From assembly GCF_007644105.1 (NCBI RefSeq), contig NZ_VFAC01000001.1:186001-250000 (forward strand): 64,000 bases of DNA, read 5' to 3'. The notes under the pieces were generated by a model. It was not told the DNA's origin, searched no databases, and saw only the letters and a list, made by a program, of their open reading frames with translations. A program made the position numbers and the translations under genes. Below, one piece after another: positions 7,090 through 49,023 of the stretch; the first letter of the stretch is position 1; the number at the start of each line of letters is the position of its first letter. Source of the stretch: Elioraea rosea (GTDB taxonomy: Bacteria > Pseudomonadota > Alphaproteobacteria > Acetobacterales > Acetobacteraceae).

Positions 7090-7094
7090 CTCTC

Positions 7095-30314: not shown

Positions 30315-30492
30315 GCGCGGAGAATCATGCCTCACGGCGATGTTTGTCCAGCGCAGCGCACGCGGGGCTGCATGTCGGGACTGGCAAAATCCCCGCCCGT
30401 CCCATATCGAGGCATCGGAAGAGGCGGAATGGCCGTAGAGAGGCCGCACGCGCCGGGCAACGGACTGGGAAGACGAACGAGGTTTCCGGCGC

Positions 30493-34037: not shown

Positions 34038-34050
34038 CGGACCCTCGACG

Positions 34051-35268
34051 ATGCACGGAACCGATACCACGCTGCCCTCGCCGCGCGCCAAGAAGCAGGA
34101 CCGGCGCTTTCGACTTGCTCTCAGGCTCGCGGGGCTGATCCGCACCGGGCATCTCATGCTCACCCTGCCGGACGGGTCGATGCACCGCTTCGGGGGGCAC
34201 CGCCCCGGGCCCGAGGCGCATGTCACGCTCTCGCATCCGCGCGCGATCCGCCGCCTCGCCTTCGGCGGCAGCCTCGGCTGGGCCGAGGCCTATCTCGACG
34301 GCGACTGGTCGAGCCCCGACATCCGCGCGGTGATGGCGCTCGCCGCGGCGAACGAAGCGGAATGGGACGAGGTGCTGCGCGGCAGCGTCCTGGTCCGCAC
34401 GCTGTCGCGGCTCTACCACGCCTTCCGGCCGAACACGCGGCGTGGCGCGCGGCGCAACATCGCCGCCCATTACGACCTCGGCAACGAGTTCTACGCCGCC
34501 TGGCTCGACCCGACGATGACCTACTCCTCGGCTGAGTTCGCCGAAGCGGGTGAGACGCTCGAGGCCGCGCAGGCGCGCAAGGTGCGAAATCTCCTCGCCG
34601 CGATCGACCTTCGTCCGGGACAGACACTCCTCGAGATCGGCTGCGGCTGGGGTTACCTCGCGGAAACAGCGGCGCGCGACTTCGGCGCGCGCGTCGTCGC
34701 GCTGACGCTCTCGCGCGAGCAGCACGCCTTCGCCTCCGCCCGGATCGCGACGGCGGGATTGTCCGACCGTGTCGAGATCCGGCTGCAGGACTATCGCGAC
34801 GTCCCCGAGCGGTTCGACCGCATCGCGTCGGTCGAGATGTTCGAGGCGGTTGGCGAGGCCTACTGGCCGGCATTCTTCGCCGCCGTGCACGGAAGGCTGG
34901 TGCCCGGTGGGCTTGCGGGGCTGCAGATCATCACGATCGCTGACCGATTCTTTCCCGCCTATCGGACCAGCGCCGACTTCATCCAGCGCTACGTCTTTCC
35001 CGGCGGGATGCTTCCCTCGCCTTCACGGCTGCGCGAGGAGGTGGCCCGCGCCGGGCTCGCCTGGGCAAGGGAGGAATGGTTCGGAAATTCCTATGCCGAA
35101 ACGCTGCGGATCTGGAACGACCACTTCCAGCGTGCCTGGCCCGGGATCACGCCGCTCGGCTACGATGACCGCTTCAAGCGCCTGTGGGAGTACTACCTCG
35201 CCTATTGCGAGACCGGGTTCCGCGCGGGCTGGACCGATGTCGGGCGCATCGTGCTCGCCCGGCCCTGA
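34051..35268 (+). CDS. Cyclopropane-fatty-acid-synthase-family methyltransferase (CfaA/UfaM-like)
   Basis: 405 residues. An N-terminal lipid-binding domain is followed by HYDLGNEFY (140-148), MTYSSA, and the SAM-binding LEIGCGWG (194-201). The family methylates the double bond of phospholipid-bound unsaturated fatty acids, giving cyclopropane or methylated acyl chains at the membrane. In Rhodobacter the relative in this gene context performs the methylation step of furan fatty acid synthesis. Given the neighbours (COG2907, DUF1365, DUF3833), that role is more likely here than housekeeping cyclopropanation. Confidence 0.9.
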   Translation: MHGTDTTLPSPRAKKQDRRFRLALRLAGLIRTGHLMLTLPDGSMHRFGGHRPGPEAHVTLSHPRAIRRLAFGGSLGWAEAYLDGDWSSPDIRAVMALAAANEAEWDEVLRGSVLVRTLSRLYHAFRPNTRRGARRNIAAHYDLGNEFYAAWLDPTMTYSSAEFAEAGETLEAAQARKVRNLLAAIDLRPGQTLLEIGCGWGYLAETAARDFGARVVALTLSREQHAFASARIATAGLSDRVEIRLQDYRDVPERFDRIASVEMFEAVGEAYWPAFFAAVHGRLVPGGLAGLQIITIADRFFPAYRTSADFIQRYVFPGGMLPSPSRLREEVARAGLAWAREEWFGNSYAETLRIWNDHFQRAWPGITPLGYDDRFKRLWEYYLAYCETGFRAGWTDVGRIVLARP

Positions 35269-35270
35269 CG

Positions 35271-36593
35271 GTGCCGAGCGCGCGCCGAGGCGCCCTGCCG
35301 GCGGGGCTGCTAGCCTGCTACGCCGCGCCCGCCTTTCCGCTCGCCATCCTTGGCCTGCCACTGAACGTCTACCTCCCGACCTTCTGGGGTGAGACGCTCG
35401 GGCTCGGGCTGACCACGGTCGGCCTCGTGCTCCTCGCGACACGGCTTCTCGACGTGGTGACGGACCCGCTCATCGGCCTGCTGTCGGATCGCTCGCGCGG
35501 CCGGCTCGGACGCCGCCGCCCCTGGGTCGCGGCAGCGCTTCCGGTCGCCGCGCCTGCCGTGTGGCTTCTGTTCGTTCCGCCCGAAGGCGCAGGTGCGGGG
35601 CACCTCTTCGTGACAGCGAGCCTCGTCTATCTCGGCTGGACGATGCTCAACATCGCCCACACGGCCTGGGGCGCGGAGCTGTCGGGCGAGTATCACCAGC
35701 GCACGCGCGTCACCGCCTGGCGCGAGGCGGCGACGCTCGGCGGCATCATCGCCTCCGCGCTCGTGCCTGCACTGATGCCCGGCGGGATCGCTGCCGACCT
35801 GCGCGCGCTCGCGTTCGCCACGCTCGCGCTTGCGATCCCGGCCTTCGCGATGCTGTTCCTCGCGGTGCCCGACACAGCGGCCGCGCCGGCGCCACTGCAA
35901 AGGCAGAGCCTCGGCGCCCTGTTCGCGCCGCTTCTCGCTAACCGCGCGTTCCGGCGGCTGATCTCCGCCTGGGTGGTGAACGGCATCGCCAACGGTCTGC
36001 CGGCGGCGCTGTTCCTTCTGGTGGTGACGCATCTCCTCGTGGCGGAGGACAAGGCGGGACTGCTGCTGCTTGCCTATTTCCTTGCCGCCATCCTCGCCGT
36101 TCCCGGCTGGACGGCGGTCGCCGCGCGTATGGGCAAGCACCGCACCTGGTGCACGGCGATGCTGTGGGCGTCGGTCGTGTTCGGCTTCGTGCCGCTTCTC
36201 GGGGCGGGAGACTGGCTTGCCTTCCTCGTCATCTCCATCCTTTCCGGCGCAGCACTCGGGGCCGATCTCGCGCTGCCGCCGGCGATCCAGGCCGATGTGG
36301 TCGATCTCGATCGGCTCGAGACGGGCGAGGGTCGGGCGGGCCTGCTGTTCGCGCTCGCCTCGATGGCGCAGAAGCTTGGAAACGCCCTCGCGGTCGGGCT
36401 CGGCCTGCCGCTTCTCGAGCTTTTGGGCTTCCGCACCGACGGCGGCGTGCAGGGGCTCGGCGCGCTGGTCGCCCTCTACTGCGGCGCGCCGATCCTGCTG
36501 AAGCTCATTGCCGTCGCCATCATGTGGCACTTCCCGATCGACCGGGCGGAACAGGAGAGACTGCGCGCGCGCATCGAGGCGGCGGCGCAATGA
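35271..36593 (+). CDS. MFS_2-family carrier (glycoside/cation symporter or lipid-carrier type)
   Basis: 440 residues and twelve membrane segments. It carries the MFS_2 signature DPLIGLLSDRSRGRLGRRRPW after TM2 (shown in part) and the family's long central loop. The start is GTG 35271, two bases after the previous stop. The fold is shared by sugar-cation symporters and by MFSD2A-type lysolipid carriers. Inside an operon of acyl-chain-modifying enzymes, a lysolipid or fatty-acid substrate is plausible, but this is inference. It overlaps the next gene (ATGA). Confidence 0.88.
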   Translation: MPSARRGALPAGLLACYAAPAFPLAILGLPLNVYLPTFWGETLGLGLTTVGLVLLATRLLDVVTDPLIGLLSDRSRGRLGRRRPWVAAALPVAAPAVWLLFVPPEGAGAGHLFVTASLVYLGWTMLNIAHTAWGAELSGEYHQRTRVTAWREAATLGGIIASALVPALMPGGIAADLRALAFATLALAIPAFAMLFLAVPDTAAAPAPLQRQSLGALFAPLLANRAFRRLISAWVVNGIANGLPAALFLLVVTHLLVAEDKAGLLLLAYFLAAILAVPGWTAVAARMGKHRTWCTAMLWASVVFGFVPLLGAGDWLAFLVISILSGAALGADLALPPAIQADVVDLDRLETGEGRAGLLFALASMAQKLGNALAVGLGLPLLELLGFRTDGGVQGLGALVALYCGAPILLKLIAVAIMWHFPIDRAEQERLRARIEAAAQ

Positions 36594-37324
36594 GGCTTTC
36601 GCTTCCCGGGGGATACCGCGGCGTTCGCGTGATCGGCGACGTCCACGGCGAGGCCGTGCCGTTCCGCGCCGCGCTCGTTGGCGCGGCGGCGGAGCGGCTC
36701 TTCGTCGTCCAGCTCGGCGACCTGACCGACCATGGGCCAGACAGCCCCGGCGCGCTCGCTGCCATGTTCGACACGCTCGATCGCGGCGCCGGGCTGTTCC
36801 TTCTCGGCAACCATGACCACAAGCTCCGCCGCGCGCTGCTCGGCAATGCCGTGTCGGCCGAACCCGACGGGCTCGGCGCGACGCTCGCGCAGCTTGCCGC
36901 GCACCCGGACGGGCAAGCCCTCTCTTCCCGCGCCATCGCCGAGATCGCCGCAGCCCCCGCCTGGGTCGCGTGGGGGCGCACGCGGCTCTTCGTCCATGGC
37001 GGGTTCCACCCCGCGATGCTCGCCGCACCGCCACCGGCCGAGGCCGGCGCGCGCAAGCCGGACCCGGTGCTCGCGCGCGCGCTCTACGGCCAGGCTGTGC
37101 GCGGCGCGGTCACCGCGACCGGCTACCCCGTGCGCGTGCTGGAGTGGGTCGATGCGATCCCGCGCGGGCTCACGGTCTATTGCGGGCACGACATCCGCAC
37201 GACCGACGGCCGCCCCCATGTGAGGGCGGGGCGCGGCGGCGGCAGCGCCGTGTTCATGGATACGGGCGCCGGCAAAGGTGGGCACCTCTCGTGGTGCGAC
37301 CTCGAGCCGGAGAAGGAGGGATGA
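36590..37324 (+). CDS. Calcineurin-like metallophosphoesterase
   Basis: 244 residues. Metal motifs are GDVHG (16-20), GDLTDHGPDS (43-52), GNHDHK (73-78), VHGGFHPAM and the final CGHDI. The pattern is that of PP1/ApaH-like phosphoesterases, with either protein phosphatase or dinucleoside polyphosphatase activity possible. It overlaps both neighbours by four bases, so it is an obligate part of the photolyase operon transcript. I have not seen it as a standard member of this cluster. Confidence 0.85.
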   Translation: MRLSLPGGYRGVRVIGDVHGEAVPFRAALVGAAAERLFVVQLGDLTDHGPDSPGALAAMFDTLDRGAGLFLLGNHDHKLRRALLGNAVSAEPDGLGATLAQLAAHPDGQALSSRAIAEIAAAPAWVAWGRTRLFVHGGFHPAMLAAPPPAEAGARKPDPVLARALYGQAVRGAVTATGYPVRVLEWVDAIPRGLTVYCGHDIRTTDGRPHVRAGRGGGSAVFMDTGAGKGGHLSWCDLEPEKEG

Positions 37325-37881
37325 CCGGACAGATGATGCGCAAGGCCTGGAGCCGCATGGCCGTCGCCATGCTTGCTGTGCTCGTTCTCGCTGGATGCGG
37401 AGGGGGAATGAAGATCGAGGATTTCGCCGGGCGCACGCCCGAGCTCCGTCTCGAGGAGTACTTCGCCGGGCGCACCCGCGCCGCCGGCCTGTTCGAGGAC
37501 CGGTTCGGCACGGTGCGCCGCACCTTCGTCGTCGACATCGACGGCACCTGGGACGGCACGACGCTGACGCTCGACGAGGACTTCACCTACAACGACGGCG
37601 AGAAGCAGCGCCGCATCTGGCGGCTGACGCGCACCGGCGACCGCATGTGGGAAGGCCGGGCGGACGACGTGATCGGCGTTGCGCAGGGGCGCGAGGCGGG
37701 CAACGCCTTCCAGTTCGGCTACCGGATCAACCTGAAGGTCGGCGACAGCACCTGGGAGGTGCGCTTCGACGACTGGATGTTCCGCATCGACGAGGAGACG
37801 GTGTTGAATACGGCGAAGGTCTACCGCTGGGGCATCTGGATCGGGACGGTTCAGCTCGCCTTCCGCAGGACGCCAGCCTGA
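37321..37881 (+). CDS. DUF3833-family lipoprotein
   Basis: 186 residues. A lipoprotein signal ends in LVLAGC, with lipidated Cys26, so the mature protein is anchored to the inner or outer membrane facing the periplasm. The body has the DUF3833 features: GRTPELRLEEYFAGRT, FVVDIDGTWDG, EDFTYNDGEKQRRIW, YRINLKVGD and NTAKVYRWGI. Function is unknown. DUF3833 genes recur beside DUF1365/COG2907/CFA genes, so a role in trafficking or protecting modified lipid is a reasonable guess. The start overlaps the phosphoesterase stop. Confidence 0.88.
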   Translation: MTGQMMRKAWSRMAVAMLAVLVLAGCGGGMKIEDFAGRTPELRLEEYFAGRTRAAGLFEDRFGTVRRTFVVDIDGTWDGTTLTLDEDFTYNDGEKQRRIWRLTRTGDRMWEGRADDVIGVAQGREAGNAFQFGYRINLKVGDSTWEVRFDDWMFRIDEETVLNTAKVYRWGIWIGTVQLAFRRTPA

Positions 37882-38345
37882 TGGCACTCGCACTCGCGAC
37901 GATCGCCGAGCGGCCGGAGCTCGCGCCGGTCGTCGCGCCCTGGCTCTGGGAGGAATGGGGCCGCGGCAAGGGCCGCACGCTCGATCAGGTTCTCGCGCGC
38001 ATCGCGTCGCGCACTGCGCGGGTTGGGCTCGAGCAGACCGTCGTGGCGCTCGAGGACGGCGTTGCGGTGGCCACCGCGAGCCTCACCGCCGCCGATGCCG
38101 ACAGCCGCCCCGAACTCACGCCTTGGCTCGCCTCCGTGTTCGTCGCACCCGAGGCACGCGGGCGGGGCTATGCGCGCGTCGTCGTCACCGCGGTCGAGAG
38201 CGCGGCGCGGCGCGGCGGGTTCGAGACGCTCTGGCTCTTCACCAACTCCGCGCCAGCGCTCTACGCCGGGCTCGGCTGGCAGGACGCGGGCACGATCACC
38301 GAGGGCGGGAAGCCCTATGCACTGATGCGGCGCCGGCTGGGTTGA
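37881..38345 (+). CDS. GNAT-family N-acetyltransferase
   Basis: A 154-residue acetyltransferase. The acetyl-CoA binding loop is VAPEARGRGYARVVV, with LWLFTNSAPALYAGLGWQ near the C-terminus. It is the last gene of the photolyase operon (TGATG overlap with the lipoprotein gene). Its 3' end overlaps the convergent nsrR gene by 50 bases. Acceptor substrate is unknown. Confidence 0.85.
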   Translation: MALALATIAERPELAPVVAPWLWEEWGRGKGRTLDQVLARIASRTARVGLEQTVVALEDGVAVATASLTAADADSRPELTPWLASVFVAPEARGRGYARVVVTAVESAARRGGFETLWLFTNSAPALYAGLGWQDAGTITEGGKPYALMRRRLG

Positions 38346-38754
38346 GTACGGCGGCGTCGCCGAGGCAGTCGGCGAGCGTCACCGCATCGAGGGTCGTGAG
38401 GAAGGCATCGCGGGCGCGCGCCAGCGCATTGCGAAGCCGGCAGCCGGGCATGAGGCGGCACGCGCCGCCGTCCTCGCGAAAGCACTCGACGAGCGCCTGG
38501 CCGGCCTCAAGCTGCCGCACCACGCCACCGATGCTGATCCTCTCCGCCGGACGGCCGAGCTGAACCCCGCCGCGCGCCCCACGCACCGTGCGAACGAGAC
38601 CAAGCGCTGCGAGCGCCTGGACGAGCTTGTGCACATGGTTGCGCGGCACGCCGATCTCGGTCGCGAGCGCCTCGGTGCTGCGGATCTCCCCCGGCTCGGC
38701 GCCGAGGCAGAGCAGCACGCGGAGAGCGAAATCGGTGGACGCGAGAAGTCGCAG
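38296..38754 (-). CDS. nsrR: Rrf2-family repressor, NsrR-like nitric-oxide sensor (probable CTG start)
   Basis: Rrf2 winged-helix protein. Residues RLLASTDFALRVLLCL open the fold, the recognition helix is IGVPRNHVHKLVQAL, the wing is VRGARGG, and the cluster-binding cysteines are C91, C99 and C105 (numbered from the proposed start) in LVECFREDGGACRLMPGC. That arrangement matches NsrR, whose Fe-S cluster senses NO. The first ATG/GTG/TTG in frame is GTG 38718, which would remove the first 12 residues of helix 1. A CTG at 38754 has GGGAGG six bases upstream and restores the full family N-terminus (152 residues), so I take CTG as the start. It is divergent from the hemerythrin and NnrS genes. Confidence 0.88.
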   Translation of the reverse strand: MRLLASTDFALRVLLCLGAEPGEIRSTEALATEIGVPRNHVHKLVQALAALGLVRTVRGARGGVQLGRPAERISIGGVVRQLEAGQALVECFREDGGACRLMPGCRLRNALARARDAFLTTLDAVTLADCLGDAAVLNPAGAASVHRASRPR

Positions 38755-38760
38755 GACCTG

Positions 38761-38766
38761 CCTCCC
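38761..38766 (-). promoter_or_regulatory. Ribosome-binding site supporting the nsrR CTG start
   Basis: GGGAGG on the minus strand, six bases before the CTG codon at 38754. No comparable sequence precedes the alternative GTG at 38718. Confidence 0.6.
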
Positions 38767-38781
38767 GGCTGTTGCTGGAAA

Positions 38782-38800
38782 CTGGTATTGACAATACCAG
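38782..38800. promoter_or_regulatory. Perfect 19-base palindrome, probable NsrR operator 1
   Basis: CTGGTATTGACAATACCAG has perfect 9-base arms around one central base. It lies 28 bases upstream of the nsrR start in the divergent nsrR/hemerythrin promoter region. NsrR sites in other proteobacteria are AT-rich palindromes of this size, often with GGTATT/AATACC-like arms. Confidence 0.65.
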
Positions 38801-38818
38801 ATTTCGGCGCAAGAGTAA

Positions 38819-38837
38819 TTGGTATCACAAATACCAG
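38819..38837. promoter_or_regulatory. Second palindrome, probable NsrR operator 2
   Basis: TTGGTATCACAAATACCAG resembles operator 1 (arms TGGTAT / ATACCA). Its centre is 37 bases from that of operator 1, and it ends 25 bases before the hemerythrin gene start. One operator probably serves each divergent promoter. Confidence 0.6.
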
Positions 38838-38862
38838 TTCGTGACCGGCCAGGAACCCAGCC

Positions 38863-39408
38863 ATGTCAGACGCCTCCCTCCACCACCACTCCCCCGGCTG
38901 CGGCTGCAACACCCGCACGGCGGCGACCGCCGATGACGGCGAGATCAGTCCGTTGCCTGAGGAGACCGGCGCGCTCATCGAGCATGTGCTGGCCCGCTAC
39001 CACGCCGCGCACCGGCGCGAGCTGCCCGAACTCATTGCGCTGGCGAGGCGCGTCGAGCGTGTGCACGCCGATGTCGATGACGCCCCGCTCGGCCTCGCGA
39101 CGCTGCTCGAAGCAATTGCCCAGGACCTGACCGACCACATGGCCAAGGAGGAGGCGGTCCTCTTCCCGATGATGCGAAGAGGAGGGCACGCGATTATCGA
39201 CGGGCCGATCGCGGTGATGCGCCACGAGCACGCAGGGCATGGCGAGGCGCTGCGCGCACTTGCCCAGCTGACCAACGGGCATGTTCCGCCCGACGGGGCC
39301 TGCGGCTCCTGGCGGGCGCTCTATGCCGGAACGCGCAAGCTCGCGGAGGATCTCGAGACACACATGCACATCGAGAACGACATCCTCTTCCCCCGTTTCA
39401 GGACATGA
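38863..39408 (+). CDS. Hemerythrin-domain protein, RIC/DnrN-like Fe-S cluster repair type
   Basis: A 181-residue di-iron protein. It starts with a His/Cys-rich tail (HHHSPGCGC), followed by a four-helix bundle with ligand-type residues in ARYHAAHRRELPEL, HMAKEEAVLFPMM, RHEHAGHGE and HMHIENDILFPRF. The last motif is the signature of YtfE/RIC/DnrN proteins, which repair NO-damaged iron-sulphur clusters. The usual N-terminal ScdA domain is absent. Its position behind NsrR-type operators and before nnrS supports a nitrosative-stress role. Ribosome site AGGA lies eight bases upstream. Confidence 0.88.
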   Translation: MSDASLHHHSPGCGCNTRTAATADDGEISPLPEETGALIEHVLARYHAAHRRELPELIALARRVERVHADVDDAPLGLATLLEAIAQDLTDHMAKEEAVLFPMMRRGGHAIIDGPIAVMRHEHAGHGEALRALAQLTNGHVPPDGACGSWRALYAGTRKLAEDLETHMHIENDILFPRFRT

Positions 39409-39421
39409 GGGAGGCCACTCG

Positions 39422-40633
39422 ATGAATGCGATCACGGGGGTGGGCGCGGCTGGGGAGCGCAGGGGCTTCGCCCTGTTCGCGCATGGGTTCCGGCCGTTCT
39501 TCCTGATGGCCGGGCTCGTCGCGCCCGCCTCCGTGGCGGCCTGGCTTCTGGTGGTCGCCGGTGTGGCGGTGCCGGAGGGCCCGCTGCCGATGCTGCGCTG
39601 GCATGCGCACGAGCTGCTTGGGGGTTTCGTGGCTGCGGCGATGATCGGCTTCGTGATGACGGCCGTGCCGAACTGGACGGGGCGGCGCGGCTATTCCGGC
39701 CCGCCGCTCATCCTGATCGCCACGCTGTTCCTCGCGGCACGGCTGGCCCTCCTGCCCGGATCGCCCGTGCCGATCGGCCTTGCCGCGCCGCTCGCGCTGC
39801 TGCCCATTCCGGCGACCGTGCTTCTGGTCCTGCCGGCGCTCGTCCAGTCGAAGGCGCCGAAGCTGTTCCTGCCCCCCGCCATCATCCTCGCGTTCTGGTC
39901 CGGCCAGGTGCTGATGCTCGGCGAGGCGGCGTCATGGTGGGAAGCCGACACCTGGGCCACCGGCCAGATGCTGATGGCGAATGTCGCGCTGCTTCTCGTC
40001 GGGCTGATCGGCGGACGGATCGTTCCGGCCTTCACGCTCAACGCACTCCGCCGCGAGGGGATGCCGCGCGAGGCGCGCCCGATCCGCGGCCTCGACCAGG
40101 CGGCGATGCTGTCTCTCGCCGCCGTTGTGGCGTCCGACCTCGCCGCCCCCGGCTCGACGACCGCCGGCGCGGTCGCCGCGGTCGCTGCCGCGCTCGTGCT
40201 GCTTCGCCTCTCGCTCTGGCATGGCCTCGCGACCTGGCGCTGGCCGATCCTCTGGGTGCTGCACCTCGCCTATGCCTTCGTCCCGGCCGCGCTCGCGCTC
40301 AAGGCCGCAGCACTTCTGCTCGATGCCGGATGGGCGTCTGCCTGGCTGCACCTGCAGACGATCGGCGCGCTCGGGCTGATGATCCTCGCGGTGATGACGC
40401 GCGCCACGCTCGGCCATACCGGGCGCGATCTCGTCGCCGCGCCGGCGACCGTCGGGGCCTATCTCTGCATCGCCTCGGCAGCGCTTCTGCGGTGCTTCGG
40501 CGGCCTCGTCGCGGATGACAGGATGGTGGCGACTGCCGCGGCCGGCGCGCTCTGGATCCTAGGTTTCGCGCTGTTCCTCGCCGTGCATGCGCCGATGCTC
40601 ATCGGGTCGCGGGCGGACGGAAAACCCGGCTGA
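39422..40633 (+). CDS. nnrS: NnrS-family heme/copper membrane protein
   Basis: 403 residues and about twelve membrane segments. Family features are LFAHGFRPFFLMAGL at residues 18-32, LRWHAHELLGGFVAAAMIGF with conserved His, TAVPNWTGR, and MTRATLGHTGRDL near the C-terminus. NnrS relieves NO-induced metabolic stress in denitrifying and non-denitrifying bacteria and is a typical NsrR target. It follows the hemerythrin gene by 13 bases, so one transcript is likely. Confidence 0.92.
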   Translation: MNAITGVGAAGERRGFALFAHGFRPFFLMAGLVAPASVAAWLLVVAGVAVPEGPLPMLRWHAHELLGGFVAAAMIGFVMTAVPNWTGRRGYSGPPLILIATLFLAARLALLPGSPVPIGLAAPLALLPIPATVLLVLPALVQSKAPKLFLPPAIILAFWSGQVLMLGEAASWWEADTWATGQMLMANVALLLVGLIGGRIVPAFTLNALRREGMPREARPIRGLDQAAMLSLAAVVASDLAAPGSTTAGAVAAVAAALVLLRLSLWHGLATWRWPILWVLHLAYAFVPAALALKAAALLLDAGWASAWLHLQTIGALGLMILAVMTRATLGHTGRDLVAAPATVGAYLCIASAALLRCFGGLVADDRMVATAAAGALWILGFALFLAVHAPMLIGSRADGKPG

Positions 40634-40940
40634 AGCGCTCAGCCGCCGCCGACGCGGCGCGCGAGAAGCCGCATCACAGGTGGGCGGTGACGGGATGCGT
40701 CGTCAGTGCCGGGAAGCGCCTGCGCGTGCCGGCGTCAAACGACACGGTCGCGCAGGCGCATTCGGGCGGGCGGCGGGCTGGCGCGCATGGTCGGTGAGCT
40801 GCCCGGGCGAGCGCGCATGGCGACAGGCATCGCTGGTTGCGCTGCCGGTCGGCAGATGTGTTCGCGCTCCGTTGCGCCCCCCCCTCCCCCGTGCAACGGT
40901 GCTGGAGCAACGCCGAGGGCGGCGTGACGAAGGGGACCAC
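40634..40940. other. Intergenic region before the PEP-CTERM gene
   Basis: 307 bases without a supported gene. It contains the left copy of a 39-base direct repeat (40638-40676), a C-rich run near 40886-40900 and the leader of the PEP-CTERM gene. I see no clear promoter consensus. The left repeat encodes, on the minus strand, the last 11 codons and stop of the NTF2-like gene, so it is a gene remnant. Confidence 0.7.
40638..40676. repeat. 39-base direct repeat, left copy
   Basis: Identical in 38 of 39 positions to 41875-41913. On the minus strand it reads MRLLARRVGGG and a stop, the tail of the NTF2-like gene located at the right copy. It marks the left edge of a 1.2-kb segment containing the PEP-CTERM gene. 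Confidence 0.85.
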
Positions 40941-41564
40941 ATGCGCGAGAGACGTACGACTTATCTTCTGCGTGCAACCGCCATCGCCGCCGGCTTGGCG
41001 CTGGCTGCGCCCGCCGAGGCAGCGGTGATCACCTATGTCGAGGGGACGGATATCGCCAACAGCCTCCCCGGAACGCTGCTCGGCGCGCTGGATGTCGGCC
41101 TGAACACCGTCACCGGCAGCATTGCATGCAGCGGCGCCTTCTGTTCTCGCGACGATGACCTCGACGTCTTCAACGTGACCCTGGCGTCCACGCTCCGCAT
41201 CACCGGCATCACGATCGCGGTCAGCAACTACGTCACGGACGGGAATGGGGTCGGCGGTGGCTTTCTCGGAGCGCTTGACGGAACGCTGCGCGGGCAGGTC
41301 AATTTCGCCCGGTCGTTCGTGGGCGATCTGCCAACGACCAGCGTGTTCAGCGGGGCAACTGTCGGGGCGGGCGACCTGACGCTCACCATGCAGTCATTCT
41401 TCCTGGACGGCGTAGGCTCCCGGAGCTGGGACTACGTCGTCGCGATCACGGTCGAGGCGATTCCGACAGCGCCTGTGCCGGTGCCGGAGCCGGCAAGCCT
41501 CGCGCTGCTCGGCGCCGGCCTGCTGGGCCTGCGCGTGGCGCGCCGCAGCCCCCGCGCGGGCTGA
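40941..41564 (+). CDS. PEP-CTERM sorting-domain protein
   Basis: 207 residues. An N-terminal signal peptide (ATAIAAGLALAAPAEAA) is followed by a beta-rich Ser/Thr/Gly body. The C-terminal sorting tail is VPEPASLALLGAGLLGL plus a positive end RVARRSPRAG. PEP-CTERM proteins are processed by an exosortase (EpsH) and attached at the cell surface, usually in exopolysaccharide-making species. No exosortase gene is in this window. Flanking direct repeats suggest that the gene was inserted into the end of the NTF2-like operon. Cargo function is unknown. Confidence 0.88.
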   Translation: MRERRTTYLLRATAIAAGLALAAPAEAAVITYVEGTDIANSLPGTLLGALDVGLNTVTGSIACSGAFCSRDDDLDVFNVTLASTLRITGITIAVSNYVTDGNGVGGGFLGALDGTLRGQVNFARSFVGDLPTTSVFSGATVGAGDLTLTMQSFFLDGVGSRSWDYVVAITVEAIPTAPVPVPEPASLALLGAGLLGLRVARRSPRAG

Positions 41565-41874
41565 GATCCGATCCGGAAAGAGGTCGGGTTGGCGCAAATC
41601 GTATGCGAGTCACTGCCCCTGCCGACGATTCCCACGCAGCGGGCGATCGTATCGTCTTACGAACATCTCGACTGGCGAACATCGGCGTGCGGCGAACCGA
41701 TGCGGTCGATGCGCGCGAGATGGTGAACCGGTGATCCACGCGCTGTCCACCGGCTGCCGCAGGCATGCGCTGCAGCGGGTCCTGCGGCCTTCGTCCGAAT
41801 TGCCATGATCCGCACACTCATTCGAAGCCTCGCGGCAAAGCCGTCAAGCTGGGTCGGATCCTTCCGGATCGGCT
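41565..41874. other. Intergenic region after the PEP-CTERM gene
   Basis: About 310 bases with no supported gene. An 11-base inverted pair, CCGATCCGGAA (near 41570) and TTCCGGATCGG (near 41862), brackets most of it, which could be the remains of a small mobile element or a hairpin. Nothing else is recognisable. Confidence 0.5.
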
Positions 41875-41913
41875 CTCAGCCGCCGCCGACGCGGCGGGCG
41901 AGAAGCCGCATCA
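41875..41913. repeat. 39-base direct repeat, right copy
   Basis: Right copy of the repeat at 40638-40676. It forms the 3' end of the intact NTF2-like gene, so this copy is ancestral and the left copy is the duplicate. Confidence 0.85.
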
Positions 41914-42322
41914 TCCCGCCGAGCACGGGAAGCCGGGCGTAGAGCTGGCTAGCGCTGTCCCAATGGTCGAGATGGGCGGTGACCAGCCCGTCCGCGCCGA
42001 GATGGACCTCGCTCAACCCCTCGATGCGCCCGCCCTTCTCTCCCTCGCCCCAGGCGAAGCTCCAGCGGATGTAGCCGGCCTCGATGCCGAAGGCGCGGTC
42101 GGTCACGGCGAAGCGGGGGTTCGGCACACGCTCGAGCATGCGCGAGAGGATACGCCGGAGTGCTTCGCGGCCGCGCACGTCATGGAACGGGTCACGAAAA
42201 TGGATGTCGGCCGCGGCGAGCGACAGCAGACGCTCGATCGTTCCGGGTCGAAGCTCCTCCCACGCCGCCCCCCAGGCAGCGAGCGCTGCAGCGCGGGGGT
42301 TGAGCGTGGTGGTCGCCGCCAT
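41876..42322 (-). CDS. NTF2/SnoaL-like small protein
   Basis: A 148-residue SnoaL/NTF2 fold. It has a helical start, DIHFRDPFHDVRGREALRRIL near residue 40 and the strands IRWSFAWGEG and GLVTAHLDHWDSASQLYARLP. The family includes isomerases and hydrolases and many proteins of unknown role. A relative of this type travels with the SDR and photolyase genes of singlet-oxygen-regulated clusters. It is the last gene of the minus-strand five-gene operon, four bases after the SDR. Confidence 0.85.
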   Translation of the reverse strand: MAATTTLNPRAAALAAWGAAWEELRPGTIERLLSLAAADIHFRDPFHDVRGREALRRILSRMLERVPNPRFAVTDRAFGIEAGYIRWSFAWGEGEKGGRIEGLSEVHLGADGLVTAHLDHWDSASQLYARLPVLGGMMRLLARRVGGG

Positions 42323-42326
42323 CGCT

Positions 42327-43106
42327 TCAGCGCGCGCCGGTCGAACGGCCCACGAGGGGGAAGTAGAGGGCGTAGGGAAGGATGCGCATGACCTTGAGGA
42401 TATACGCGAAGCGGCGCGGGAAGCACACCTCGAACCGCCCGCGTGACAGTCCCGTGACGATGCGGCGGGATGCCTCCTCGACGCTCATCAGGAACGGCAT
42501 GGGGAACTCGTTCCGGTCGGTCAGCGGCGTCTTCACGAAGCCGGGATTCACGAGGTTGACCATCACGCCGGCGCGGTCGAGGTCGAACTTCAGGCTCTCC
42601 GCCATCGCGATCAGCCCGGCCTTGGTCGTCGAATAGGCGATGGCCCGGGGCAGTCCGCGATAGCCGGCGACGGACGAGACAATCGCGATCTGGCCGGAGC
42701 GGCGCGCGATCATCGCCGGCATCACGGCATTCACCGCATTGGCGGTGCCGATCACGTTGACGTTCACCTGGTTGGTGAAGGCGGCGAGGTCGAAGCGCTG
42801 CGCGCTGTCGGTGACATAGGTGCCGGCGGACAGGATGGCGAGCGCAATCGGCCGCCCAGCGGTCACCTCGGCCGCCTTCGCCGCCTTCGCCACCGCGTCT
42901 GCGTCCGTCACGTCCGCCGCGGCGACGAGGATCGTGTTCGGGGGGGCCTCCGCCGCGAGCTTCGCGAGCTCCTCCTCGCGGCGGGCGGTGACGGCGACGG
43001 TCCAGCCCGCGCGGGCGAGGTCGAGCGCGACCTGCCTGCCGATGCCGCTCGAGGCGCCGGTGACCCAGGCAAGCCCGTCCTGCGGCGTGGCGGGGCGCGG
43101 GCTCAT
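42327..43106 (-). CDS. SDR-family oxidoreductase (photo-oxidative cluster)
   Basis: A 259-residue classical SDR: GASSGIG at residues 17-23, SAGTY in place of NNAG, catalytic serines in VSSVAG and the YSTTK active site intact. The C-terminal segment YILKVMRILPYALYFPL is hydrophobic, suggesting membrane association, as in lipid-acting SDRs. It overlaps the photolyase gene by four bases. The substrate may be a lipid ketone or alcohol, which is inference from context. Confidence 0.88.
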   Translation of the reverse strand: MSPRPATPQDGLAWVTGASSGIGRQVALDLARAGWTVAVTARREEELAKLAAEAPPNTILVAAADVTDADAVAKAAKAAEVTAGRPIALAILSAGTYVTDSAQRFDLAAFTNQVNVNVIGTANAVNAVMPAMIARRSGQIAIVSSVAGYRGLPRAIAYSTTKAGLIAMAESLKFDLDRAGVMVNLVNPGFVKTPLTDRNEFPMPFLMSVEEASRRIVTGLSRGRFEVCFPRRFAYILKVMRILPYALYFPLVGRSTGAR

Positions 43107-44656
43107 GCGGCCCTCCCGGCCCGGCGCGGCGCGACGCGGTCGAGGAAGGCCTCGGCCTGCCTCCGCATCGCCGCGACCTTGCCTGCATCCATCCGGTCCA
43201 TCGTCCGGTACATCTGCGCCATGCGTGGATTACCCTCGAAACGGTCGCGGTGCCGCGCCAGGAAGTTCCAGTAGAGTGCGTTGAACGGGCAGGCTTGCGG
43301 GCCGGTTGCCTGGCGCACATCGTGGCGGCAGGAGCGGCAGTGGTCGCTCATCCGGTCGATGTACTTACCCGAGGCCGCGTAGGGCTTCGAGGCCATGATG
43401 CCGCCATCGGCGTGGATGGCCATGCCGTGCGTGTTCGGCAGTTCGACCCATTCGAACGCATCGGCGTAGACGGCGAGATACCAGGCGTTGATCTCGTCCG
43501 GGTCGATGCCCGCGAGCAGGGCGAAATTGCCCGTCACCATCAGGCGCTGGATGTGATGGGCGTAGGCATGGTCACGTGTCTGGGAGACGACCGCGTCGAT
43601 GCACGCCATGCCGCTGTCCGCCGTCCAGTAGAACCCGGGAAGCGCACGATCCGCCCCGAGGGCGTTGAGCGTGGCGTAGCGCGGCATCAGGTGCCAGTAG
43701 AGGCCGCGCACGTATTCGCGCCAGCCGATGATCTGGCGGATGAAGCCCTCGACGGCGTTGAGCGGCGCCCGCCCCTCGCGCCACGCCGCTTCGGCCGCGC
43801 GGCAGACCTCAAGCGGATCGAGCAGGCCGAGATTGAGGCTCGTCGAGAGAAGCGAGTGGAAGAGGAACGCCTCTCCTTCGGCCATCGCGTCCTGGTAGTC
43901 ACCGAATGAGGGAAGGCGGTCGCGGATGAACGCGTCGCGTGCCGCCTGCGCCTCTCCGATGGACACGGGAAAGTTGAACGCCTCCAGCGCGCCGAAGTTG
44001 CCGCCGAAGCGTTCGGAAACGAGCGCGATCACATTGCGCGTGATCGCGTCGGGTTCGAATCGCGGCGGGGCGGGAACGCGCAGCCCTTTCGGCAGGGGCT
44101 TGCGGTTCTCCGCATCGAAGTTCCAGGCGCCGCCCGCCGGCTCGCCATCGACCATCAGGAGCCCGGTGCGGCGCCGCATCTCGCGGTAGAAGAATTCCAT
44201 CCTGAGGCTCTTCCGCCCCTTGGCCCAGGAGGCGAAGTCCTCCCGGGAGGCGATGAAGCGCCGGTCGGGGCGGATCTCGACGGCGGTCCCCGTCTCACAT
44301 TCCCAGCCGCGCATTGCCTCGAGCACGCGCCACTCGCCGGGCTCTGTCGCGACGATCCGATCCGGACGGTGCCCGCGCACGGCACGCGCGACCTCGCCGG
44401 AGAGCGAGCCGGAATTTGCGGGATCGTCGAGCCGAACGTAGTCGACCCGCACGCCCTCCGCCTCGAGAGCGGCGGCATGATGGCGCATCGCCGAGAGGAC
44501 GAGCGCGATCTTGGCCTTGTGGTGCGGCACGTAGGTGCACTCGCCCATCACCTCGGCCATCAGTACCGTGTCGGAAGCCGGGTCGAGGCCGTCGAGCGCG
44601 GAGAGGCCGCGCGTGAGCTGGTCGCCGAGGACGACGCGGAGGGTGCCCCCGGCCAT
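43103..44656 (-). CDS. Fe-S bacterial cryptochrome/photolyase (PhrB, (6-4) type)
   Basis: 517 residues, COG3046. The N-terminal domain begins LRVVLGDQLTRGL. The FAD domain has YVRGLYWHLMP and TRDHAYAHHIQRLMVTGNFAL (in part). Four cysteines in the expected positions bind a 4Fe-4S cluster: SGMACID, the CRSC pair, and QACPFNALYW. Characterised members (Agrobacterium PhrB, Rhodobacter CryB) repair (6-4) photoproducts or act as photoreceptors. This is the second, distinct photolyase of the window. Five bases separate it from the DUF6134 gene. Confidence 0.93.
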   Translation of the reverse strand: MAGGTLRVVLGDQLTRGLSALDGLDPASDTVLMAEVMGECTYVPHHKAKIALVLSAMRHHAAALEAEGVRVDYVRLDDPANSGSLSGEVARAVRGHRPDRIVATEPGEWRVLEAMRGWECETGTAVEIRPDRRFIASREDFASWAKGRKSLRMEFFYREMRRRTGLLMVDGEPAGGAWNFDAENRKPLPKGLRVPAPPRFEPDAITRNVIALVSERFGGNFGALEAFNFPVSIGEAQAARDAFIRDRLPSFGDYQDAMAEGEAFLFHSLLSTSLNLGLLDPLEVCRAAEAAWREGRAPLNAVEGFIRQIIGWREYVRGLYWHLMPRYATLNALGADRALPGFYWTADSGMACIDAVVSQTRDHAYAHHIQRLMVTGNFALLAGIDPDEINAWYLAVYADAFEWVELPNTHGMAIHADGGIMASKPYAASGKYIDRMSDHCRSCRHDVRQATGPQACPFNALYWNFLARHRDRFEGNPRMAQMYRTMDRMDAGKVAAMRRQAEAFLDRVAPRRAGRAA

Positions 44657-44661
44657 GCGCC

Positions 44662-45306
44662 TCAGGCGGTGCGCGTGTAGGAGATGACCGAGCCGTCGCT
44701 GCGCGTGAAGCGGAGCGCGCACCAGCTTCCCGCGCGGTCGTACCAGATGTCGAGGGAGAGATCCCCGCTGATGCGCCAGCGCGTCGTCTGCGTCGGCCGG
44801 CCGGCGACCGGCACCTCCTCCTCGCCGAGGCGCTCGATCGTCGTCGCGAGAAGCTTGCCGCCCTGGGTGTCGATCTTCTGCTCGCGCAGGAAGGCGGCAT
44901 GCCAGTAGCTCGTCGAAATCGCCTCGCGCGGCGCGACATAGGCACCCGACTGCGTTCCCTCGACGGCGATGCCGCGCCCGTCGGCCACCGCCTTCACCGC
45001 CAAGGGGGTGCCGTTGTTGTCGGTCGTGCTCTCGATCGACATCAGCCTGTCGCCGCGCCACAGCTCGGCGTTGCGGTGCACGTAGCGGAACGCGGTGATG
45101 CCGAGGAACCGCACGGCGAAGTCGATCGCGATCGAGACGCGCACATCGCCGCCGTCGCGCGCGAAGTTCAGCACATGCGTGCCGATCGGGCTGTCGTTGC
45201 GAAACACGTCGAACGCGATGCGGTTGCCGGACGGGACCGCCGCGAGAAGCGCGCGCGGTGCGAGAAGGGCGGGCGCGGCAAGCAGAAGCGACCGACGGGC
45301 GGGCAT
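44662..45306 (-). CDS. DUF6134-family exported protein
   Basis: 214 residues with a signal peptide (RRSLLLAAPALLAPRALLAAV, in part). The body is beta-rich: FDVFRNDSPIGTHVLNFARDG, an aromatic-rich RFLGITAFRYVH and ESTTDNNGT. It matches DUF6134, a periplasmic or outer-surface family of unknown function with a lipocalin- or LolA-like pattern. In this operon, with SDRs and a photolyase, a lipid-binding role is conceivable. Fourteen bases separate it from the first operon gene. Confidence 0.75.
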   Translation of the reverse strand: MPARRSLLLAAPALLAPRALLAAVPSGNRIAFDVFRNDSPIGTHVLNFARDGGDVRVSIAIDFAVRFLGITAFRYVHRNAELWRGDRLMSIESTTDNNGTPLAVKAVADGRGIAVEGTQSGAYVAPREAISTSYWHAAFLREQKIDTQGGKLLATTIERLGEEEVPVAGRPTQTTRWRISGDLSLDIWYDRAGSWCALRFTRSDGSVISYTRTA

Positions 45307-45320
45307 CGTTCCTCCTTATC

Positions 45321-46055
45321 CTATCCCTTGGTGCGCAGGCTCGACCGCCCGCCATCGACGGCGAAGACCTGGCCGGTGATCCACCCCGCCTCGGGGCCGA
45401 GCAGGAACCGCGCGAGCGCTGCGGCATCCTCCGCCTCGCCGAGCCGCGGAATGGGGTGCTGCGCGGCGATCGCCTTGGCCATCGCCTCGTTGCCTGTCAG
45501 CGGCGTGGCGATCCCTGTGCGGGTCAGGCTCGGCGCGATGCAGTTGACGCGAATGGCCGGCGCAAGCTCGGCCGCGAGCGCGACGGCGAGGCCCTCGACC
45601 GCCGCCTTGGCAGGGCCGATCACCGAGTGGTTGGCAAAGCCCGATCGCGCGGCGACGGAGGAGAACAGCACCACCGAGCCCTGCCCCGCCTTCAGCGCGC
45701 CTTCCGCAGCGGCGATCGCCTCGGCGGCGGCCACGACATTCAGGCGGTAGGCGGAGAGATGGTCCTCCGCCGTCGCGCGCTTGAGCGGCTTGAGGACGAT
45801 CGAGCCGACCGCGAAAACGAGCCCGCTCAGGGCGCCGCCATGCGGGATCGCGGCTTCGGCCACCGTGCGTGCGATGGCACCCGGCTCGAGAACGTCGCAG
45901 ACGCTCGCGGGCGCGCCGAGCCGGCGGCTCAGCTCGCCAAGGCGATCCTGGTCGCGCCCGGCGAGGTGCACCGCGCGGCCGGACGCAGCAAGGCCCGAGG
46001 CGATGGCCCCGCCGATCCCACCCGTCGCACCGAAAACCAGAACCGCGCCCTGCAT
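45321..46055 (-). CDS. SDR-family protein, first gene of the photolyase-2 operon
   Basis: 244 residues. The nucleotide motif is GATGGIG (residues 9-15) and the catalytic serines in LFSSVAAR are present. The YxxxK position reads HSVIGPAK, so Lys is kept but Tyr is replaced by Ile, and His two residues earlier may substitute. Such SDRs occur in light/singlet-oxygen clusters. Activity with a normal SDR mechanism is doubtful. It starts the minus-strand operon and faces the SixA gene across a 161-base region with an inverted repeat. Confidence 0.83.
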   Translation of the reverse strand: MQGAVLVFGATGGIGGAIASGLAASGRAVHLAGRDQDRLGELSRRLGAPASVCDVLEPGAIARTVAEAAIPHGGALSGLVFAVGSIVLKPLKRATAEDHLSAYRLNVVAAAEAIAAAEGALKAGQGSVVLFSSVAARSGFANHSVIGPAKAAVEGLAVALAAELAPAIRVNCIAPSLTRTGIATPLTGNEAMAKAIAAQHPIPRLGEAEDAAALARFLLGPEAGWITGQVFAVDGGRSSLRTKG

Positions 46056-46103
46056 CACCGCTCCCTGTCGCAATCCGCAACAGATGGTGGGGTCGAGCGA
46101 GGC

Positions 46104-46122
46104 CACATCAACCGTTGACGTG
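46104..46122. promoter_or_regulatory. 19-base inverted repeat in divergent promoter region
   Basis: CACATCAACCGTTGACGTG has arms matching in 7 of 8 positions around CCG. It lies 49 bases upstream of the SDR start at 46055 and 95 bases before the SixA-like gene. It could be the operator of the photolyase-2 operon. The regulator is unknown. Confidence 0.4.
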
Positions 46123-46216
46123 AGCGTGAAACCCAGCCCCGCCGGGGATGGGCGCGGGGCGGCGTCCGTGGCATGGTCGCGCGCAAGCCAACCGACGGAG
46201 CCCCGTGCCCGCCGCC

Positions 46217-46750
46217 ATGCGACAGCTTCTGTTGCTGCGCCACGCAAAATCCGCCTGGGACGATGCCAGGCTGCCGGACCATGACCGACCGCTCGATGCG
46301 CGCGGCCAGCGCGACGCGGCGGCGATGGGCGAGGCGATGCGGAAACTCGGCCTCTCGCCCGACATCGTGCTCGTCTCCTCCGCGCGAAGGACGCGCGAAA
46401 CGCTCGCTGCCATCGAGCCGTTCGACGCCTCGCCGCTGGTCGACGAGGACGAGGGCCTCTACCTCGCCCCGGCCGAGCGTATGCTCGAGATGCTGCACGC
46501 GGTGCCGGAAACCGCGCGCTCGGTGCTCCTGATCGGCCACAACCCCGGCATGCACAACCTGGCGCTGACCCTGGCGGGGCCGGGCGGGCTCGCCCGCGGC
46601 GGGCGGGAGGCCGAGAAGCTGGGCGAGCGCTATCCGACGGGCGGGCTCGCCGAGTTCGCCGTCGCGAGCCCCTGGTGGGGTCTCGAGGCTGGCGGCGGGC
46701 GGCTCGTACGCTTCCTCTGCCCGCGCGATCTCCTGCCGAAGGATGGTTGA
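46217..46750 (+). CDS. Histidine phosphatase (SixA-like phosphohistidine phosphatase)
   Basis: A 177-residue RHG-superfamily phosphatase. The catalytic motif LRHAKSAWDD has Arg8-His9, a second Arg lies in SSARRTRET, and the late His is in IGHNPGMHNL. SixA removes phosphate from histidine phosphotransfer proteins (ArcB, PTS-Ntr) in E. coli. The start at 46217 is the first ATG; a GTG four codons upstream is possible. It overlaps the CHAD gene by 8 bases, a pairing that suggests joint action on phosphate or polyphosphate metabolism. Confidence 0.88.
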   Translation: MRQLLLLRHAKSAWDDARLPDHDRPLDARGQRDAAAMGEAMRKLGLSPDIVLVSSARRTRETLAAIEPFDASPLVDEDEGLYLAPAERMLEMLHAVPETARSVLLIGHNPGMHNLALTLAGPGGLARGGREAEKLGERYPTGGLAEFAVASPWWGLEAGGGRLVRFLCPRDLLPKDG

Positions 46751-48203
46751 GCACGCGGCGCCGTTCGCGCTGGAGCTCACGCTTGAGCCCGGCGCGGCCG
46801 CCAAGGCATTCCGGCGCCCGGCGATCGCGTCGCGGGTACGGGGCAGCGGCGTCTCCCTCGTCTGGTACTGCGCCGCCGACGGTTCGCTCGGCGAGGAAGG
46901 GCTCGCGCTTGTGGTCGAGGCACGCCGGCGCGGTGCGGTCCAACGTCTGGTGCGCTGCCGACCCGAGGCGGGCGAGACCTGGCTCCCGGGCCGGCCCATG
47001 CCGGTACTCGCCGAAGCCCCGCTTCCCGATCGCCAGCCACGCCCGGGGCTGATCGCTGCGCTGGCGGAGCACCTCGTGCCGCAGAGCCTCGCCGCCTTCG
47101 AGGGCCGTCGGTCGGTCGCTCAGGCGGCTGGGGTTACGGTCACCCTTCTCGCCGGAACGCTTCGCGCCGTCACGGCGGAGCGGCCGGTCGCCCGCCTCAC
47201 CCTCGAGGGCGAGCGCGAGGCGGTGTTCGCCCTCGCCGCTTCGCTGGCGGCCGATCTTCCCCTAGCCATCCCGGCGACGACCATCGCCGAGGAGGCGCGC
47301 GCGCTCGCGCGCGGGGCGCCCCCGCGCCCGCTCCGGCTCGGCGCCCCCGCCATCGCGCGCGGGGCGACCACGGAACAGGCCTTCTCGGCGATCGTCGCGC
47401 ATCTTTGCCTCGCGATCCTCGCCAACGCCCCGGCCGCGGACGCGGGAGAGACGCCAGAGGGCGTGCATCAGACCAGGGTGGCGCTTCGCCGGCTCCGCTC
47501 GGCGCTGTCACTGTTCCGCGATGTCGGCGGCGCCGAGGGCGAACGCGCCTCGGCCGGGCTGAAGGGGCTCGCCGCGACGCTCGGCCCCGCGCGGGACTGG
47601 GACGTGTTCATCACCGGCAGGCTCGCCGCCGTGCGCGCGGCCTTTCCCGAGGAGGAGCGCATCGCCGCGCTCGCGAGGCGGGCCGAGGCGGTGCGCGAGG
47701 CGGCCTATGCCGCGCTGCGCGCATCGCTTGACAGCCCGGGCTTCCGGCTGCTCGGCCTCGCACTCGCCGAGCTCGCGGCAGCGCCAGGCGCCGCGCCCGA
47801 GCCCGTCGAAGGCTTCGCCGCACGCGCACTCAACAAGCGGCTCAAGCGCGTGCTGCGCCATGGCGAGGACCTCTCCGGCCTGCCGATCGCCGAGCTTCAC
47901 CGCCTCCGCCTCGACTGCAAGCGCCTGCGCTATGCGGGCGAGATGTTCGCGCCGCTGTTCGGGCAGAAGAAGGCGCGCCGGTTCCTGAAGTCGCTCGCCG
48001 CGGTGCAGGAGGAGCTTGGCCACCTGAACGACGCGGAGGTGGGCGCGGTGCTTCTCGAGGAGGTGGGCGAGCCGGGAGAGGCGTCGGCCTTCGCCTCGGG
48101 CGTGGTCGAGGGCTGGATCGCCGCCAAGGCGGATGGTGCGCGCGAGGCAGCCTTCGAGGCCTGGGAGGAGTTCCTCGGCCGCGACGTCTTCTGGGACGGG
48201 TGA
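46743..48203 (+). CDS. CHAD-domain protein with CYTH-like N-terminus
   Basis: 486 residues. The C-terminal CHAD domain (about 215-480) has VHQTRVALRRLRSALSLFR, DWDVFITGRL and LHRLRLDCKRLRYAGEMF, with the rows of conserved His, Arg and Lys that bind polyphosphate. The N-terminal 200 residues show a diverged CYTH/triphosphate-tunnel pattern (paired Arg and Glu residues on strands). CHAD proteins bind inorganic polyphosphate granules. Cotranscribed with the SixA-like phosphatase. Confidence 0.87.
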   Translation: MVEHAAPFALELTLEPGAAAKAFRRPAIASRVRGSGVSLVWYCAADGSLGEEGLALVVEARRRGAVQRLVRCRPEAGETWLPGRPMPVLAEAPLPDRQPRPGLIAALAEHLVPQSLAAFEGRRSVAQAAGVTVTLLAGTLRAVTAERPVARLTLEGEREAVFALAASLAADLPLAIPATTIAEEARALARGAPPRPLRLGAPAIARGATTEQAFSAIVAHLCLAILANAPAADAGETPEGVHQTRVALRRLRSALSLFRDVGGAEGERASAGLKGLAATLGPARDWDVFITGRLAAVRAAFPEEERIAALARRAEAVREAAYAALRASLDSPGFRLLGLALAELAAAPGAAPEPVEGFAARALNKRLKRVLRHGEDLSGLPIAELHRLRLDCKRLRYAGEMFAPLFGQKKARRFLKSLAAVQEELGHLNDAEVGAVLLEEVGEPGEASAFASGVVEGWIAAKADGAREAAFEAWEEFLGRDVFWDG

Positions 48204-48210
48204 GCCGGGC

Positions 48211-49023
48211 TCAGCCGGCGAGGCCGTCGTAGAGGAGCTTGAGGCCGGTCGCGAACAGGAGCGCGAAGACGATCCTGTAGAACAGCGCGTCCGGCACGCG
48301 GCGCGAGAGCCATAAGCCGAGCAGCACGCCAGCCGGCGCGGTCGGAAGCAGCACCGCCGAGGTCGAGAGGTTGGTGACGTTGAGCTGCCCCAGCATCGCG
48401 TAGGGCACGAGCTTCACGTAGTTCACGAAGGCGAAGAACATCACCGTCGTCGCGTTGAGCAGCGCGCGCGGATAGCGTCGTGGCAGCAGGTACACGGCAA
48501 GCGGCGGCCCGCCCGCATGCGCGAGCGTGGAGGTGAAGCCGGAGGCGAGGCTCGCGGCGAAGGCCGCGGGGCGGTTCTCGCCCGGCGGCTCGCTTCGCTG
48601 ACCGCGCGCGAGCCACGCCTTGCCCCAGGCATGCAGGGTGAACAGGACCGCGACCGCGCCGATCAGCGTCTTCACCGCCCTGTCGGAGAGCTCGCCGAAC
48701 GCGAGCGCGCCGAGCACGATTCCCGCGATCGCCCCGGGCAGCAGGATCAGCATCAGGCGCCTGTCCCACGACCGCCGGTAGGCCCAGATGCCGACGATGT
48801 CCATCACGCAGAGGATGGGCAGCACGATGCCGGCTGCCTGCGCTGCGGGGATGGTCAGCGCCATCGCCGGCACGGCGAGGTTGCCGCCGCCCGAGGCGAA
48901 GCCGCCCTTGCTGATGCCCGTGACCAGGAGCGTCGGAATCGCGACCGCGTAGAACCAGGGCTCGGAGATCGGCGCGGCGAGTAGCGCAGGCAGGGCTTCG
49001 GTCAAGCGCGCGAGGGACGGCAT
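48211..49023 (-). CDS. TSUP-family permease (TauE/SafE)
   Basis: 270 residues and about eight membrane segments. TSUP signatures are VTGISKGGFASGGGNLAVP near residue 35 and FTSTLAHAGGPPLAVYLLP in the second half. The family moves sulfite, sulfoacetate, taurine-derived or other organic anions across the inner membrane. Start ATG 49023 fits the family. It is divergent from another TSUP gene 131 bases away. The substrate is not deducible. Confidence 0.9.
   Translation of the reverse strand: MPSLARLTEALPALLAAPISEPWFYAVAIPTLLVTGISKGGFASGGGNLAVPAMALTIPAAQAAGIVLPILCVMDIVGIWAYRRSWDRRLMLILLPGAIAGIVLGALAFGELSDRAVKTLIGAVAVLFTLHAWGKAWLARGQRSEPPGENRPAAFAASLASGFTSTLAHAGGPPLAVYLLPRRYPRALLNATTVMFFAFVNYVKLVPYAMLGQLNVTNLSTSAVLLPTAPAGVLLGLWLSRRVPDALFYRIVFALLFATGLKLLYDGLAG

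Follow-up and report, generated by a model that had tools for sequence, protein, structure and literature searches.

A 39-bp direct repeat flanking a PEP-CTERM gene in Elioraea rosea most likely reflects a recent, ordinary rearrangement

How did the last 39 bp of one gene in Elioraea rosea come to stand a second time about 1.2 kb away, next to nnrS and on the far side of a lone PEP-CTERM gene, and is this arrangement the scar of an insertion? In the window (the whole stretch of 64,000 nucleotides of contig NZ_VFAC01000001.1 that was analysed), the left copy at 40638-40676 and the right copy at 41875-41913 lie on the same strand and are identical at 38/39 positions, as the initial annotation had reported; when the pair is widened by three bases on the left, 40/42 are identical. 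Read on the minus strand, either copy encodes MRLLARRVGGG followed by a stop codon, with a lone, synonymous difference between them (GCG/GCC). Translation and Pfam agree that both are the tail of an NTF2/SnoaL-like gene, of which the right copy is the native tail and the only one to end an intact gene (41876..42322, minus strand, 148 aa, SnoaL_2-like, PF12680 E 2.9e-11). The left copy is an orphan tail, separated from the nnrS stop codon by four bases.

Among direct repeats within 3 kb of each other in the 64-kb window, this pair ranks third, with a score of 36. The two that score higher lie at about 5.9-8.1 kb, where repeats of 73 and 106 bases spaced about 1.27 kb apart (window 5895-8125) are accompanied by shorter ones at equal spacing; by eye, this is a tandem pair of paralogous genes. 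With these and the 39-bp pair set aside, the top score is 18. A search of the assembly (4,487,661 bases, a draft of 95 contigs, with the repeat inside a contig of 370 kb) shows exactly two occurrences of the 39-bp motif, and no third copy was found in the 4.49 Mb when up to 3 mismatches were allowed. The 39-bp repeat is not a product of chance.

The repeat lies at the right-hand end of a longer series of genes. A GNAT acetyltransferase gene (37881..38345, plus strand, PF00583 E 5.8e-12, start inferred from the ORF) is the conserved left neighbour of a variable interval, as seen from synteny with three relatives (G001, G220, and G312). It is followed by a gene for an Rrf2-family, NsrR-like regulator (38296..38718, minus strand, PF02082 E 6.2e-29, with the listed GTG taken as the putative start), which exceeds the NCBIfam cut-off for the Rrf2 superfamily and for which NsrR is the best NCBIfam match, below its cut-off. 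The last ~16 codons of this gene run antisense over the final 50 bases of the GNAT gene (38296-38345), and its homologues align only down to about 38349. Because of this overlap with the GNAT 3′ end, the left joint of the interval is probably near 38346-38349; we do not claim that the NsrR-like gene was truncated there, as its homologues differ in length. Next come a gene for a hemerythrin-domain protein of the RIC/YtfE/DnrN type (38863..39408, plus strand, PF01814 E 7.3e-25, NCBIfam YtfE/RIC matches below cut-offs) and nnrS itself (39422..40633, plus strand, PF05940 E 4.5e-87). Between the NsrR-like and RIC-like genes, a palindrome, TGGTATTGACAATACCA, at 38783-38799 and a similar site at 38820-38836 resemble, by eye, candidate operators for the NsrR-like regulator.

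Between the two repeat copies (40677-41874), the sole gene recognised is that for a PEP-CTERM protein of 207 aa (40941..41564, plus strand, PF07589 E 4.9e-06), which starts 264 bases after the left copy; none of the ten other ORFs of at least 60 aa in the segment matched a Pfam family, in agreement with the initial description of a lone PEP-CTERM gene. The motif is at the C-terminus, at residues 180-202, and is over the cut-offs of both PF07589 and TIGR02595. An exosortase is encoded elsewhere in the same genome (PF09721 E 7.6e-60); of the five genomes searched for one, this genome (G000), G001, G220, and G122 have it, and it was not found in G002. The long region upstream of the PEP-CTERM gene is ordinary, because most such genes form single-gene units preceded by a long region, according to Haft et al. 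(2006, PMC1569441). No sigma-54-like site was found upstream of the gene, no sigma-70-like site within 40500-42000, and no Rfam match within 38000-43000.

The genomes available for comparison include three of the genus, and relatives of the NTF2-like gene at E 1e-20 or better occur in 6/397 family genomes (drawn from a larger group): the window's own, G001, G002, G122, G220, and G312. Window positions 30487-38341 and 41876-48977 align with the congener G001 at about 77-78%; the stretch between them, 38342-41875, has no counterpart in G001, where other DNA of 1.2 kb carries an ORF of 280 aa. The product of this ORF looks exported by eye; it has no match among Pfam and NCBIfam models and no relation to the PEP-CTERM protein of the window. 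In G220, of a sister genus, and in G312, there is a short ORF between the acetyltransferase and NTF2-like genes (that of G220 has no Pfam match), and the interval again holds no counterpart of the window's. The acetyltransferase reading frame of G312 is broken, and the gene (L052 7907-8500) seems by eye to carry an extra stretch with hairpin-like inverted repeats. In G002, other neighbours flank the NTF2 gene. By these alignments, the part that is lineage-specific among the genomes compared extends beyond the 1.2 kb separating the repeats to the whole 3.5-kb interval containing the NsrR-like, RIC-like, nnrS, and PEP-CTERM genes.

The initial annotation had pointed to relatives in which nnrS would directly adjoin the NTF2-like gene, and none of the five relatives has this arrangement. 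nnrS is present in 3/6 genomes searched, and the window's is the only one of them to have it at this locus; in G122 and G220, it is on another contig than the NTF2-like gene, and it was not found in G001, G002, or G312, with the incompleteness of G312 (75% complete) and the fragmentation of G122 bearing on its absence and linkage. Some part of the NsrR-RIC-nnrS stretch is matched in 65/397 family genomes, the window's included. Where DNA 3′ of nnrS in other genomes was aligned, the alignments listed, G137 excepted, come to an end about six bases or less from the nnrS stop codon; the alignment in G137 extends 30 bases past nnrS into the left copy, through a gapped, GC-rich end beside which no NTF2 gene lies, and CTCAGCCGCCGCC behind nnrS in G005 was judged to be a chance GC-rich gene end. 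When the NTF2 3′ flank and 40634-41940 were compared with three relatives, no homology exceeded z 2.5, and two weak matches of the 38346-38420 stretch in relatives (z 2.65 and 3.45) were dismissed. In broader scans, genome contigs yielded five distant relatives only, which were left out of the comparison; 2/72,556 plasmid records matched, at the PEP-CTERM tail only; and no relative was found among viral contigs. No paper describing this locus appeared among the titles and abstract openings covered by a literature search.

The two copies also date the event. Over the same tail, the left and right copies match at 35/36 bases, whereas the NTF2 tails of two congeners match the right copy at 28/36 bases each and the left copy at 27/36 and 29/36; judged from these sequences, the duplication is therefore younger than the species split. 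At a divergence of 19-22%, the binomial chance of one difference or fewer in 39 is 0.0007-0.003.

Similarity to NTF2 seems to resume directly after the left copy. At 40677-40691 (minus strand) is a probable second remnant tract, encoding VTAHL and matching NTF2 at 13/15 positions, which keeps NTF2 order and frame with a skip of 55 nt between it and the left copy; both mismatches are at wobble sites. Window 15-mers that match NTF2 as well number 385/62,104 on the minus strand and 408/62,104 on the plus strand, of which 22 and 48, respectively, have wobble-only differences. Over the 54 nt of the left copy and second tract together, third codon positions hold 3/3 differences, which is expected if the left copy diverged while it was still a gene. 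The 11-mer inside the tract is unremarkable over the full segment, where its score is reached by 66/200 control segments, and 67/400 shuffles of 40677-40940 do as well; within the first 30 nt, it is rare (3/400 shuffles; 10/396 window 30-mers). The tract is just 15 nt long and was spotted after the fact, and three wobble differences are few, but it is suggestive of the remnant of a second NTF2 gene that would have diverged while functional. When NTF2 was aligned with wide gaps to the region upstream of the PEP-CTERM gene, the result was judged to be noise.

At the right copy, two structures bear on which DNA is native. A strong hairpin covers the NTF2 3′ flank and tail (41865..41912, minus strand), with 5/1,065 window 48-mers folding as well; 41845-41920 folds as DNA with a z of -3.26, and the minus strand of 41850-41915 folds as RNA with a z of -2.81. 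The base of this hairpin and the point where the duplicated tract ends are at most a base apart. The hairpin is not conserved: the folds of five relatives did not surpass those of shuffled sequences (z -1.08 to 1.28). At the PEP-CTERM stop codon (41559..41581, plus strand), the NTF2 stop codon and 3′ flank recur as an inverted echo, whose matching arm, the NTF2 stop codon and 3′ flank themselves, is at 41859..41881 (minus strand). With a score of 17, this pair ranks above all other inverted repeats spaced within 1.5 kb in the window, the next three of which score 16. Against the 150-bp NTF2 tip, 0/200 overlapping control segments reach 15 (observed, 17), and against the 473-bp tip, 4/200 reach 17. 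Elsewhere in the genome, the echo is unmatched with up to 3 mismatches, and a reversed control pattern is matched once. Because the hairpin and the echo both cross the boundary at 41875, the flank would be NTF2's own rather than carried by an insert; structure alone is thus suggestive of a 3′ flank native to NTF2.

Is the 1.2-kb segment a mobile element? No transposase or integrase was recognised in it, it has no terminal inverted repeats at its ends (the 41559/41881 inverted pair does not bound it), and no other copy occurs in the genome with an E below 0.03, the shared PEP-CTERM tail region aside. PF00589 has six matches in the genome (five over the cut-off), all of them outside the window; on the same contig, the closest tyrosine recombinase is about 101 kb off, and the other five matches are on other contigs. 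The direct repeat does restore the 3′ end of the target gene, as that of an integrative element would. Joining the flanks at the repeat in silico takes out 1,237 bp without altering the NTF2 protein; the suggestion that the repeat could permit precise loss holds to this extent, and crossing over between the copies would, as an in silico prediction, delete that length.

Other PEP-CTERM loci were scanned for a similar layout, and 22/48 have a direct repeat with a score of 17 or more, the 48 including the window's own and a few weak matches outside the PEP-CTERM tail. By eye, these are mostly tandem paralogues, local tandem repeats, and short matches, and no general cassette pattern was apparent. 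A broader idea is that lone PEP-CTERM genes travel as small cassettes: they would enter where gene ends converge and use the stop codon and 3′ hairpin of the neighbouring gene at either end, which would make the NTF2-like 3′ end a hot spot for exchange of secreted-protein genes. This idea strikes us as very unlikely. Near another PEP-CTERM locus of the window's genome, there is an exact 18-base repeat, TGTCAAGAATTCCGACAG (L086 1425-1442 and 2280-2297), which is possibly regulatory. A PEP-CTERM locus of G122 (L058) has a 99-base exact direct repeat at 1414-1512 and 2502-2600 that reaches the contig end and is perhaps a tandem paralogue or a collapsed repeat.

The explanation we favour, and hold about as readily as we doubt it, is that a second, slightly diverged copy of NTF2 was reduced to its tail, which survives as the left copy at the joint formed on arrival of the nnrS module. 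The 3′ end of a second NTF2-like copy, with an internal deletion of ~55 nt, would have given rise to the left copy, and the joint would have been made as the NsrR-RIC-nnrS module came between the acetyltransferase gene and the PEP-CTERM/NTF2 end. We infer that the donor was a close relative with nnrS convergent to NTF2, whose DNA most likely recombined in through the shared acetyltransferase side; the other side would have been closed by illegitimate joining upstream of the PEP-CTERM gene, with the donor's NTF2 stub staying behind. Both the donor and this order of events are conjectural. The second tract, the wobble-only differences, the hairpin, and the inverted echo are all suggestive of such a remnant. 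Ku is encoded in the window's genome and in G001 (it was not found in G002, G220, or G122), and its presence probably counts in favour of illegitimate joining. Against the remnant explanation, the 6/397 family genomes having the NTF2 gene yielded none with nnrS convergent to it, the hairpin is not conserved, and nothing homologous to the NTF2 3′ flank was detected in relatives.

The insertion scar proposed in the initial annotation fares differently in its two parts. That the interval is new in this lineage and that the left copy duplicates the NTF2 tail are both borne out; that the 1.2-kb segment alone was inserted, with a clean 39-bp target duplication, sits less well with a lineage-specific part of 3.5 kb that includes nnrS, with the apparent resumption of NTF2 sequence after the left copy, with a hairpin and echo that cross the right boundary, and with the failure to recognise a transposase or integrase. 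In the form weighed here, nnrS would first have adjoined NTF2, a staggered break in the NTF2 tail would later have taken up the PEP-CTERM segment, and fill-in would have duplicated 39 bp and preserved the gene; this is possible but doubtful. It accounts neatly for a left copy four bases past nnrS and a right copy that completes its gene, with removal restoring both; Ku is present, a lone PEP-CTERM gene is plausible as cargo, and the left copy and nnrS end together form one terminator-like site (40645-40627, minus strand), although 0.5 such sites are expected by chance. It would require an nnrS-NTF2 adjacency that is seen in no relative, and the NTF2 similarity past the left copy and the structures over the right boundary would be coincidences. 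We also know of no transposon target duplication as long as 39 bp.

Repair of a break at the joint might instead have involved a polymerase that switched to the NTF2 3′ end, copied ~40 nt directly and ~20 nt inverted, and returned. Direct and inverted echoes of one NTF2 end flanking the PEP-CTERM gene are what such a templated patch would leave, and the hairpin, whose base falls no more than one base from where the duplicated tract ends, is a likely site for stalling or breakage; templating does not predict wobble-only differences, however, and the inverted echo outscores its nearest rivals among the window's inverted repeats by just one point, such that we consider this route unlikely. Far less probable is a small integrative element with the 39-bp NTF2 3′ end as its att core, restored on integration: the anatomy of the repeat is the classic one, but the segment has no recognised recombinase, with the nearest on the contig about 101 kb away, and the genome has neither a second copy of the segment nor another 39-bp site. 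Misassembly at the repeat is the least credible of all, in spite of the number of contigs in the draft (95), as an ordinary sequencing read exceeds the repeat in length and the site is within its 370-kb contig, with both sides aligning with a relative.

The scar is thus most likely a recent, ordinary rearrangement and not a new kind of mobile element. It gives a base-resolution view of a stress-response module and a surface-protein gene settling at a variable site flanked by two conserved genes, and the locus is a concrete place to ask whether 39-bp repeats let such genes be lost. Beyond the detail of the joint and this question of loss, it is routine genome turnover.

A direct repeat that rebuilds the 3′ end of a gene is the classic anatomy of integrative elements, such as islands in tRNA genes. 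The locus resembles these in that the direct repeat equals the gene's 3′ end and the gene is intact, but here no integrase was recognised, the segment is only ~1.2 kb long, and there are no further copies or sites. Islands at the 3′ end of trmE are mentioned in PMC8409611. In comparison with the PEP-CTERM/exosortase cargo genes described by Haft et al. (PMC1569441), the window's gene is likewise a single-gene unit with a long upstream region in a genome with an exosortase, but no sigma-54-like site was detected upstream. The gene content of the left part of the interval is that of NsrR-RIC-nnrS nitric-oxide stress modules, whereas, of the genomes compared, that of the window alone has such a module at this locus. 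Homology-facilitated illegitimate recombination leaves gene-fragment remnants and direct repeats at joints. With such remnants at the joints of horizontally acquired DNA, the locus shares one conserved flank, one non-homologous joint, and new genes that stand next to a truncated second copy of the end of a resident gene; it differs in having an internal skip at the joint and, perhaps, an inverted echo.
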